NCBI GenBank assembly: GCA_903929765.1
Contig: CAIYVX010000047.1
Location: 1 to 35,762, forward strand
Length of the DNA: 35,762 nt
Source: an uncultured Planctomycetia bacterium
Lineage (GTDB): Bacteria; Planctomycetota; Phycisphaerae; FEN-1346; JAACEH01
Reading direction: 5' to 3'
Shown here: positions 6,896-10,038 of the stretch, piece by piece
Layout: the number at the start of each line of letters is the position of its first letter
Numbering within the stretch: the stretch's first letter is position 1
Notes under the pieces: model-generated
Seen by the model: only the letters and a program-made list of their open reading frames with translations
Told to the model about the DNA's origin: nothing
Database searches by the model: none
Made by a program: the position numbers and the translations under genes

Positions 6896-7588
6896 TTCAA
6901 AAACTAGAAAACTAGGGACAGCCACCTATTACATTCCATACGTTCCTATTTCAAGGCCCGAAGGGCCGGAAGTGTTTAGCCGGCGGCGTGAGCCGCCGGT
7001 GCCGAGGCCACGAAAATATTCTTTTCTTCTTTTTCTTCGTAGCCCCGACGGGGCGGCAGTGACGTTCGCCCCGGGCGGGGCTGAGAAAAAAAGAAGAAGC
7101 CAGGGCTGGTTGGCGTGGCGGACCGTAGGCTCACGCCTACGGCTAAAAACTTTCGCCGCTTCGCGGCTGGGGAAGATGTGGCGGCAGGTGGGCAGCCTCA
7201 TTATTGGGCCGGGAAAAGAAGAAACAGCGTCCCCCAGCAATGCTGGAGGCTTCTAAAATAAAAGCAGAGGCAAAGAAGAAGAAAAAGAGGACTCTATGAT
7301 GCTCGCCTTTAACCACGGGCTTGCGCCGCGTGGCTACTATCAAACGCCGCTACGCGGCTAACAAATTGACCAAAAAAAGCGAGCGGACGGCGACGAGTTT
7401 CCTCCGTGCGCCATCCGCCCCTATAAACCTCGCCCGGCAGGCGTCTCCCCCGAAACCGCCCGGAGCGTCACTTCGCGGCCCATCTTCGTCGAGGGGCCGC
7501 GCCCCCCATTGTTTGCTTCGCGGCCCCGCCCCCCGACGAGGCCGCGTCCACTGTATTCAATTCGCTCCGGCTCGCCGACCGGCGCCGT
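6896..7588. repeat. Gene-poor stretch made of palindromic repeats
   Basis: I see no convincing gene here. Recognisable modules are an AGGGACAG motif near 6914; a two-hairpin R9 unit (6951-7003) with TAGCCGGCGGCGTGAGCCG at its core; a CCCCGACGGGG/GCCCCG hairpin cluster (7042-7082); a CCGTAGGC/GCCTACGG hairpin (7123-7143); an R2 copy in reverse orientation (7217-7253); and a GGGGCCGCG (7493-7501)/CGCGGCCCC (7519-7527) perfect inverted repeat. The last lies downstream of the small-gene cluster on the minus strand and could end that transcript. Confidence 0.65.
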
Positions 7589-7663
7589 TTACCACCCCCG
7601 GTGCGGCCGGCGGCGACGGTAGACCGGCAACGTCAGGCTCTGATTCGGTCTTCGATTTGTCAT
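7589..7663 (-). CDS. Putative 24-residue basic peptide
   Basis: ATG at 7663 is preceded by GGAGGAG eight bases upstream, one of the strongest ribosome sites in the window. The frame runs 24 codons to TAA and is Arg-rich (six Arg in the last nine residues). No family is recognised. It is the last member of a run of four small frames with the same orientation, which is the main argument that it is translated. It could be a chance frame. Confidence 0.35.
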   Translation of the reverse strand: MTNRRPNQSLTLPVYRRRRPHRGW

Positions 7664-7718: not shown

Positions 7719-7796
7719 TCACGGCTCGGCCCGCAGCACCGCCAAGGCGACCGTAAGAAGCATGCCCAGCACCACAAACACGACAAAACGTGCCAT
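7719..7796 (-). CDS. Putative 25-residue single-pass membrane peptide
   Basis: ATG at 7796 follows a purine-rich GGAGGATCAGGAGC ribosome site. The 25 residues begin M-A-R-F-V-V-F-V-V-L-G-M and stay hydrophobic to about residue 20, then end R-A-E-P. This is one membrane helix with Arg at both ends. It lies 21 bases after the stop of the upstream zinc-ribbon gene, on the same strand, so co-transcription is likely. Small membrane peptides of this type often modulate a membrane partner; the partner here is unknown. Confidence 0.5.
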   Translation of the reverse strand: MARFVVFVVLGMLLTVALAVLRAEP

Positions 7797-7817: not shown

Positions 7818-8000
7818 CTAACTCCACATACTCGAATCGCCGGCCTCGCGGCTGGCCGTGTAGACCGGAACGTCGTAGACCTCGGAATTGTGCCGCCGGC
7901 ACTTGCGGCAAAGCCGGTGCGCCGCATCGGTCCACATTTGCCGGTTGCAACGCAAGCACGGCAGGTACTTCTTTTCCATCGGTCGCAGTCTCAATCGCAT
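7818..8000 (-). CDS. Small zinc-ribbon protein
   Basis: 60 residues from ATG 8000, chosen over an upstream ATG at 8087 because AAGGAG lies eight bases before it and because the longer frame would overlap the preceding gene. It contains C-L-R-C-N and C-R-K-C-R, two C-x-x-C knuckles about fifteen residues apart, so it probably binds one zinc ion. The rest is short and basic, with no recognised enzyme domain. It is the second gene of a small-gene cluster that starts at a promoter with an attenuator-like leader. Confidence 0.6.
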   Translation of the reverse strand: MRLRLRPMEKKYLPCLRCNRQMWTDAAHRLCRKCRRHNSEVYDVPVYTASREAGDSSMWS

Positions 8001-8074: not shown

Positions 8075-8257
8075 TCAGAACGCCCACTCATCCTCTTTCG
8101 TTTCGGTGCTGAACATCGGCAGCAGCCATTGGGCCCGGCACCGGCCGTTGGAGCAGCGCCACCACCGCGAGAAGTGGCGGCTGGTGGTCACCTTGGCCTG
8201 CGGCTGCATCGTCTCGCCGCAATCCGGGCATTGCCTGATGTCTGTTTTCAATTCCAT
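8075..8257 (-). CDS. Small zinc-ribbon protein, first gene after the attenuator-like leader
   Basis: 60 residues. C-P-D-C-G-E and R-C-S-N-G-R-C-R form a C-x-x-C / C-x4-C zinc ribbon of the kind found in small RNA- or DNA-binding adaptor proteins. AAGGAG lies ten bases upstream of ATG 8257. The leader of about 150 bases holds two hexaloop hairpins and an intrinsic terminator, so expression probably depends on read-through controlled by an ANTAR protein such as the one encoded just upstream. The molecular role is unknown. Confidence 0.62.
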   Translation of the reverse strand: MELKTDIRQCPDCGETMQPQAKVTTSRHFSRWWRCSNGRCRAQWLLPMFSTETKEDEWAF

Positions 8258-8293: not shown

Positions 8294-8339
8294 AAAAAAA
8301 AACGAAGCCTCGCCGATCTGGTGATCGGAAAGGCTTCGT
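8294..8339 (-). terminator. Intrinsic terminator in the leader of the small-gene cluster
   Basis: On the minus strand a 9-bp stem (8331-8339 with 8302-8310), two small internal mismatches and a 6-bp inner stem (8323-8328 with 8313-8318) close on a 4-base loop. Nine U residues follow, covering 8293-8302. It lies between a promoter (8413-8441) and the first small gene (8257), so it must end transcription before that gene unless overcome. Its 3' arm holds GGCTTC, complementary to GAAGCC in the loop and arm of the preceding hairpin. Confidence 0.85.
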
Positions 8340-8359
8340 CGCCTGTCTTACTTCCTGGC

Positions 8360-8403
8360 CCGGGCTTCTTCGCCCAGAATTGTCGTCCGCCTTCATCGGC
8401 GGA
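8360..8403 (-). promoter_or_regulatory. Tandem hexaloop hairpins (ANTAR-type RNA target)
   Basis: The minus-strand RNA forms two 6-bp hairpins. P1 (8403-8386) is UCCGCC closing loop GAUGAA. P2 (8377-8360) is CUGGGC, with one U-G pair, closing loop GAAGAA. They are 8 bases apart and lie 20 bases before an intrinsic terminator. Two adjacent stem-loops with six-base loops before a terminator are the described target of ANTAR antiterminators. The known consensus has A at loop position 1 and G at position 4; here both loops have G at 1 and G at 4. The position-4 G agrees; the position-1 G is a deviation. Confidence 0.65.
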
Positions 8404-8412
8404 ACAATTGGG

Positions 8413-8441
8413 AATCTAATCCGAAATGCGGTTCCGTGCAA
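8413..8441 (-). promoter_or_regulatory. Promoter of the attenuated small-gene transcript
   Basis: On the minus strand TTGCAC (8441-8436) and TAGATT (8418-8413) are separated by 17 bases. The predicted start near 8406 places hairpin P1 at the very 5' end of the RNA. This gives the cluster its own promoter separate from the kinase-regulator genes. Confidence 0.5.
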
Positions 8442-8527: not shown

Positions 8528-9136
8528 TTACAGGCAATCTGCCGCGTCGAGTACGCTCTGCGCGATTTCGCGCATGGCCTTGCCCTGTTCCTGGCTCTTG
8601 CTCTGGAGGATGCGGTAGGCCTGGGCCTCGGTCATTTTTTTCTTTTCCATCAGCAAGCCCTTGGCCCGCTCGACCACCTTGCGGGTCTCGATGGTGTCGC
8701 GGAGGTTGGCGTTCTCGCTCTGAAGCCGCTCGAATTCCTCGAAGCGGTTCTGGGCCAGGACCATAGCGCTGGTGAGCTGTTGCGGCGTAACCGGCTTGAC
8801 CAGATACCCGAAGACGTGGGCCTGCATCGCCTCGTTCAGATACTCGTCGTCGGCGTAGGCCGTGGTGATGATCACCGGGCAGGGCCGCCGCTCCATGATC
8901 TGCCGGGCCGCCTCCAGGCCGGTCATGCCGACGCCGAGTTGGATGTCCATGAACACCAGCCGCGGGCGCAGGCGGTCGAGTTGGGCCAGGGCGTCCTCGG
9001 CCGTGGCAAAAGTGTAGATCTCTTCGCTGCCCTGGCGCGTGAGCATGTTTTCCAGACCCAGGCGGACGAGCGACTCGTCGTCGACGATGAAAATGCAGCG
9101 CGGCGGGCTGTTCTCTGACGCCGAACGGTCTTTCAT
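8528..9136 (-). CDS. ANTAR-domain response regulator (PdtaR/EutV type)
   Basis: 202 residues. Residues 12-125 are a receiver domain with acidic pair Asp19-Asp20, phosphoacceptor Asp64 (V-F-M-D-I-Q) and Lys114 (Y-L-V-K-P-V). A coiled helix from about 127 leads to an ANTAR domain (about 145-198) with V-V-E-R-A-K-G-L-L-M and M-T-E-A-Q-A-Y-R-I-L. Phosphorylated regulators of this class dimerise and bind tandem hexaloop RNA to prevent termination. The gene overlaps the kinase gene by four bases (ATGA), so the pair is translated together. The likely target is the leader about 120 bases downstream on the same strand. Confidence 0.95.
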   Translation of the reverse strand: MKDRSASENSPPRCIFIVDDESLVRLGLENMLTRQGSEEIYTFATAEDALAQLDRLRPRLVFMDIQLGVGMTGLEAARQIMERRPCPVIITTAYADDEYLNEAMQAHVFGYLVKPVTPQQLTSAMVLAQNRFEEFERLQSENANLRDTIETRKVVERAKGLLMEKKKMTEAQAYRILQSKSQEQGKAMREIAQSVLDAADCL

Positions 9137-10038
9137 GGTGTTTCTCCCGGATTAGGCAGGACGATTTCGCAACGGCACCCGCCCTCGGGTCCGCTGGCAA
9201 TGTTGATTTTTCCTTTGAGATCGTGCTCGACGATGCTGCGAATCAGCCGCAGACCGGTTCCGTCCGACTTCGTGTCGGGACAGCCGATGCCGTCGTCGGC
9301 GATGGTGATGGTCATGGTCTCATGGTCGGGCGAACAGGCGGCCGAAAGTTCGAGCCGGCCGTGCGTGCGGCCCGAGAAGGCATGGAGAATGGCGTTGGAA
9401 ATCAATTCGTTGACCACGATGGCCAGGCTCGTGGCCGACTTGCTGGAAACGGTGCAGACACAATCGTTGACGGTGACGGCGAGCCGCGTGGCTCCGGGCG
9501 AAAGGTATCCGGCCACAGCCAGTTCCGAGAGGCCCTTGAGCAAGCCCTGGACCGGCACTTCGCGGGCGTCTTCGCTGGTCAACAGGCGGTGAACCATGGC
9601 AATGGCCCGGATTCTCGCGGCGCAGCGGTCCAGCGCCCCCACGCTCGACGGATCGACGGCCTGACGCTCCATTTCCAGCAGCGTGACCACGCTCTGGAGG
9701 TTGTTGCGGATGCGATGATGGGCTTCCCGGATCAGGGTCTGGAACAGATCGGCCCGCTCTTCGGCAATCTGGCGCGCCGCCGTGAGTTCGACCTCGACGA
9801 TCCGGTGATGCTCGGCCAGCCGCTCGGCCTCGGCCCGCAGGTCGTCAACGTTCTCGGCCAGTTGTTCGATGGCCTGGGGCAGGGCGACGTGATCCGACAA
9901 TGTGGCGTCCCGGGCGTCCTTGGCGACGCGCTGGAGCACGGCAATCTGGTCGCGAAGTTCGTGGATCTTTTCGACCACGATCTTCTCGGCGGCTCGTTTT
10001 TCAGCGGATTGTTTTTCGACCTCTTTTTCTTCGTTCAT
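9133..10038 (-). CDS. Cytosolic HisKA_2 sensor histidine kinase (PdtaS/EutW type)
   Basis: 301 residues from ATG 10038, which has AAGGG five bases upstream; a TTG at 10068 lies against a repeat and is less likely. The first 100 residues are a charged coiled coil with no PAS, GAF or membrane segment. The phosphoacceptor box H-H-R-I-R-N-N-L-Q (His107/108) is of the HisKA_2 class that pairs with ANTAR regulators. The ATPase region has the N box V-V-N-E-L-I-S-N-A, then D-D-G-I-G and G-T-G-L-R-L-I. It phosphorylates the adjacent regulator. Without a recognisable sensor domain, its input must come through the coiled coil or a partner. Confidence 0.92.
   Translation of the reverse strand: MNEEKEVEKQSAEKRAAEKIVVEKIHELRDQIAVLQRVAKDARDATLSDHVALPQAIEQLAENVDDLRAEAERLAEHHRIVEVELTAARQIAEERADLFQTLIREAHHRIRNNLQSVVTLLEMERQAVDPSSVGALDRCAARIRAIAMVHRLLTSEDAREVPVQGLLKGLSELAVAGYLSPGATRLAVTVNDCVCTVSSKSATSLAIVVNELISNAILHAFSGRTHGRLELSAACSPDHETMTITIADDGIGCPDTKSDGTGLRLIRSIVEHDLKGKINIASGPEGGCRCEIVLPNPGETP

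Follow-up and report, generated by a model that had tools for sequence, protein, structure and literature searches.

The leader of two small zinc-ribbon genes, zn1 and zn2, in the window (the whole 35,762-nucleotide stretch of DNA analysed) is very probably a transcription attenuator controlled by an ANTAR protein, with the same regulator probably acting in trans on a second copy at another locus of the genome (G000:C62); binding of the regulator to the RNA is predicted. Of the defining features of an ANTAR antiterminator that we tested, it lacks only an A at loop position 1 (A1). Best filed as new are loops that begin with G (G1), the presence of three hairpins, an altered contact surface on the regulator, and zinc-ribbon targets. 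A preliminary description had proposed an ANTAR attenuator for small genes at this place, and that proposal is well supported, since the leader recurs in another genus and elsewhere in the same genome.

A kinase, the regulator, a promoter-like pair, three hairpins, a terminator, zn1 and zn2 follow one another on the minus strand. That an ANTAR regulator and its kinase lie just upstream on the same strand, as first described, was borne out by Pfam and by the sequence. The histidine kinase (9133..10038, minus strand) has HisKA_2 and HATPase domains and no sensor domain recognisable by Pfam, and its stop codon overlaps the start codon of the regulator gene (ATGA). The latter (8528..9136, minus strand) encodes a 202-aa REC-ANTAR response regulator (Pfam E-values of 2.5e-25 for REC and 2.3e-19 for ANTAR), in which the ANTAR domain (PF03861; 69.4 bits against a curated cut-off of 27.3) lies behind the REC domain (89.2 bits). 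Its best PDB match was 1s8n (5e-33), and a search of the whole genome to which the window belongs found it to be the sole ANTAR protein.

All leader parts named in the preliminary description (a promoter, two hairpins, a terminator and a zinc-ribbon gene) were present on the minus strand by sequence and RNAfold. The promoter-like -35/-10 pair TTGCAC-17-TAGATT (8413..8441, minus strand), with an A/T-rich tract before it, follows the regulator after a gap of 86 nt. Its match to the sigma-70 consensus is weak (~7/12) and a consensus scan made no call; we consider it credible mainly because the same position recurs in all three leaders, those of the window, of C62 and of a relative, G001. RNA folding then places hairpin H1, UCCGCC[GAUGAA]GGCGGA (DNA TCCGCC[GATGAA]GGCGGA; 8386..8403, minus strand), and hairpin H2, CUGGGC[GAAGAA]GCCCGG (DNA CTGGGC[GAAGAA]GCCCGG; 8360..8377, minus strand). 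These are the two hairpins originally claimed, but a third hexaloop hairpin had been overlooked: H3, AGGC[GACGAA]GCCU (DNA AGGC[GACGAA]GCCT; 8331..8344, minus strand), separated from H2 by a 15-nt linker. When the minus-strand leader was folded, as had been suggested, the predicted hairpins and terminator formed with an RNAfold z of -4.3, and 0/200 shuffles folded as well.

The intrinsic terminator, ACGAAGCCU..CCGAUC-ACCA-GAUCGG..AGGCUUCGU plus a U-run (8294..8339, minus strand), was drawn by RNA folding with an outer stem that pairs in the three leaders, and its T-run comprises nine T. The loop and 3' arm of H3 (ACGAAGCCU) are at the same time the 5' arm of the terminator, so H3 and the terminator are mutually exclusive, and 3/3 leaders share this arrangement. 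For a transcript ending just after H3, RNAfold drew H1, H2 and H3 consecutively, with closing-pair probabilities for H3 of 0.99, 0.85 and 0.53 depending on the leader. When the whole transcript was folded, H1 and H2 persisted and the terminator absorbed H3. In the second loop of G001, GACGAC, RNAfold drew G1-C6 closed. H3 is the equivalent of the canonical ANTAR P2 hairpin, and it is the conserved mutually exclusive element and the decisive part of the leader design. The switch had earlier been sought in pairing between GAAGCC of H2 and GGCTTC in the 3' arm of the terminator. This pairing is possible in the window and not conserved: we rejected it as the main mechanism because it is shortened at C62 and cannot form in G001, where H2 and the terminator arm are not complementary.

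The relative G001 is a Phycisphaerae MAG from another genus of the same family (record JAAYDY010000122.1), and in a scan of genome contigs this record was the only true relative, the other matches being mainly to the REC domain. It encodes an ANTAR protein 59% identical to that of the window and a kinase with MASE3 and PAS domains. After the regulator come the promoter-like pair TTGGCC-18-TAGTAT, hairpins with loops GACGAA, GACGAC and GACGGA, a terminator that overlaps the third hairpin, and the zinc-ribbon pair (identities of 38% and 67%). The preliminary description would have been contradicted by loss of its two hairpins in such a relative; they are kept in G001, which has both the regulator and the zinc-ribbon genes. 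The second locus in the window's genome, C62, was found through a zn2 search, independently of the leader, and consists of a promoter, hairpins with loops GACGCA, GACGAA and GACGAA, a terminator, zn1 and zn2, with no ANTAR gene at the locus. Since the genome has one ANTAR protein, the C62 leader is probably a trans target of this single regulator.

We compared the three leaders, which come from two genomes and include two paralogues in one genome, by alignment. Paired cells made up 87-88% of the total compared with 79-82% in shuffles, and 4-5 pairs, two of the leaders being paralogues, had changed on both sides compared with ~2 in shuffles; pairing fell to 20-52% when the partners were slid. 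H1 has a paired change from C-G to G-C in G001 and H2 has three pairs changed on both sides, while the stem of H3, the best conserved hairpin, is identical in 3/3 leaders. We take this covariation as support, not proof, of the predicted folds.

In the proposed mechanism, transcription would start at ~8406 and pass H1, H2 and H3. With the active regulator absent, the terminator would absorb H3 and RNA polymerase would stop at ~8294. Phosphorylation by the kinase would allow the REC-ANTAR protein to bind as a dimer to successive GANGNN hexaloops and to keep H3 closed, and transcription would then proceed into zn1 and zn2, a direction of control that we infer. The copy at C62 would be governed by the same protein in trans.

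Searches for further copies indicated that the leader is rare. A motif derived from the leaders themselves (three hairpins spaced by 22-36 nt, each with a stem of 3 bp or more and a C-closed GANG[ACG][AC] loop) had three occurrences on both strands of the 2.58 Mb of sequence examined, namely the window leader and its two homologues, a count that shows rarity and, given the origin of the motif, carries no independent P value. A covariance model trained on the same three full copies recovered all of them, G001 contributing one and the window's genome two (E 1e-32 to 5e-24); the next independent match in the two genomes had an E of 0.18, those between being the reverse strand of the leaders, and full leaders were confined to these loci in both genomes. 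A covariance search of related genomes had been suggested at the outset; among 298 genomes of the class, 44 of which have an ANTAR gene, it gave nothing convincing outside the family. Matches there were weak, the strongest (E 4.5e-5) coming from a genome that lacks ANTAR, and those inspected had none of the loops and look like chance matches. The ~1.5 kb flanks of other ANTAR loci of the class held no comparable downstream leader, and no Rfam family exceeded its gathering score at the leader; sroD came nearest, a weak match with 18.9 bits for a threshold of 50. Pairs of the degenerate motif CGANGRMG (206+194 and 179+180 matches in these two genomes) were uninformative, the genomes being G+C-rich. 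Hexaloops followed by a T-run gave 56 and 4 matches; among the matches listed, overlap occurred only in the three leaders.

Each of the three leaders has three hairpins of at least 3 bp with a 6-nt loop, and the loops read G1-A2-N3-G4 with a C-G closing pair in 9/9 cases. The invariant G4 and closing C-G are expected from EutV and NasR (PMC8934654, PMC7496416). Position 1 is G in 9/9 loops and A in 0/9, whereas known ANTAR targets have A1 and G4 (PMC3369931, PMC7496416); the G noted early on for the window thus extends to the second genus and second locus. A1 is reported only as >50% conserved in an actinobacterial set (PMC8164766), and in E. faecalis replacing it by U made binding and induction weaker (PMC3369931). 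According to the EutV-RNA structure, G4 stacks on Tyr164 and bonds with Arg142, Lys149 and Glu160, while Met172 acts as a plug in the loop; contacts run from Asn173 and Arg175 to the stem and from Arg177 to the backbone of position 2, and A1 has no direct contact (PMC8934654).

A gapless alignment to EutV showed that the residues holding G4 (R142, K149, E160 and Y164) are kept in the window and G001 proteins, while four others are replaced in both (M172Q, N173E/K, R175G/S and R177A/P) and R168Q is found in the window protein only. In the other alignable ANTAR proteins of the class, position 175 is always Arg or Lys and Tyr164 is absent in most. The residues would be consistent with G4 being read in the conserved way and the remainder of the loop taking a different seat, and replacement of M172, N173, R175 and R177 may mean that binding is lost or altered. 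We give an even chance to the further reading that leader and regulator have co-evolved into a variant ANTAR code, in which G1-A2-N-G4 loops are read by an ANTAR domain that has exchanged its Met plug and its stem contacts (Gln172, and nothing basic at 175 or 177). Such a code would probably be orthogonal to that of the A1 systems, and it would join three tandem sites to a regulon of zinc-ribbon rather than nitrogen genes. Separately, many ANTAR proteins of the class (L201, L203-L206, L210-L212, L216, L219, L220, L222 and others) have His at the position of EutV Tyr164 and a QESQKRR-like loop, with no comparable leader nearby, which suggests another RNA preference.

The first gene past the terminator, zn1 (8075..8257, minus strand), encodes a 60-aa zinc-ribbon-like protein (CPxCG..C....C; CxxC...CxxxxC), and the second gene of the unit, zn2 (7818..8000, minus strand), a 60-aa CLRC...CRKC protein; both have good ribosome-binding sites. 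Neither protein matched a Pfam or NCBIfam family above cut-off. Structure models were middling (pLDDT 71 for zn1 and 67 for zn2) and had no significant PDB match; insignificant resemblances linked zn1 to zinc ribbons in NrdR and in subunits of RNA polymerase I, and zn2 to ribosomal protein S14. A cluster of very small target genes had been envisaged; the zn1-zn2 pair is tightly linked to the leader, but the further small ORFs are not conserved. These are a hydrophobic ORF of 25 aa (7719..7796, minus strand), which has a good ribosome-binding site, and a 24-aa basic ORF (7589..7663, minus strand); neither was seen behind the leaders of C62 and G001, and their membership is uncertain. Further downstream, three copies of Acido-Lenti-1 (RF01687; 6954-6999, minus strand; 7123-7168 and 7313-7359, plus strand) lie near one another, two above and one below the Rfam gathering score. 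Extra copies of zn2 occur in the window's genome, in G001 and in other Planctomycetota, with no leaders nearby. A third zn2 paralogue (L117 1474-1650, minus strand; G000:C6), likewise with no ANTAR leader nearby, is preceded by small ORFs that by eye resemble an entericidin and a small membrane protein, and a distant planctomycete genome (G420) has nine matches to the zn2 (CLRC...CRKC) profile.

Among eight genomes of the order, the search for zn1 returned three full-length or strong matches, each exactly behind a leader. This constant association raises the alternative that a downstream zinc-ribbon protein reads the attenuator and regulates its own synthesis, the neighbouring ANTAR operon being incidental; C62, with leader and both genes and no ANTAR gene in cis, and the degraded ANTAR contact surface relative to EutV point the same way. 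We nevertheless judge it unlikely, as G4 hexaloops, closing C-G pairs and terminator overlap form a specific ANTAR target signature, both leader-bearing genomes have this ANTAR clade with the G4 pocket intact, and zn2 relatives in other Planctomycetota do without such a leader. Still less probable is that the terminated leader, a product of ~110 nt with two stable hexaloops, is a small RNA whose three ANTAR sites titrate the regulator, with read-through secondary. EutX/Rli55 sequesters EutV in such a manner (PMC5821096), and C62 provides a second such leader; however, both copies stand directly upstream of the same genes at conserved spacing, no riboswitch family was matched, and the best conserved hairpin is H3, whose overlap counts for antitermination. 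The weak promoter match would suit a terminator that is not regulated and is read through in part, its repeated hairpins being fortuitous. This is the least credible explanation, given that both genera share the triple hairpins, the letters of the loops and the overlap with the terminator, that their stems show paired changes, and that the triple motif is absent from the remainder of the 2.58 Mb.

The favoured reading, an ANTAR-controlled attenuator, has a close parallel in Enterococcus faecalis, where EutW/EutV and the eut leaders (PMC3369931, PMC8934654) also combine a histidine kinase with a REC-ANTAR regulator, G4 hexaloops and a last hairpin overlapping the terminator; EutV has a trans target, ef0120, as proposed for C62. 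The P1/P2/terminator layout of eut, nas and ami leaders (PMC3369931) is the same in the window leader. In contrast to eut, the latter has G1-A2 in place of A1, a third hairpin where eut has two, a longer last linker (15 nt against 5-12 nt) and zinc-ribbon instead of ethanolamine targets, and its regulator differs from EutV at M172, N173, R175 and R177. The NasR-nasF leader of Klebsiella oxytoca (PMC7496416) is alike in its tandem C-G closed hexaloops, G4 preference and terminator overlap, and differs in a SELEX preference for A1, a one-component NIT-ANTAR regulator and nitrate genes. Actinobacterial ANTAR-target RNAs with PdtaR-like regulators (PMC8164766; PDB 1s8n) share the REC-ANTAR protein and have loops that tolerate deviations, but in most cases it is a ribosome-binding site or a coding region that they overlap, and seldom a terminator.

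Searches for ANTAR targets have used seeds with A1 and G4 fixed and can therefore miss G1 leaders. The EutV structure left open the reason for A1 (PMC8934654), which a natural pair changed in both RNA position 1 and the protein contacts makes testable. The leader described here adds an example from the Phycisphaerae and points to a candidate ANTAR regulon that lies outside nitrogen metabolism.
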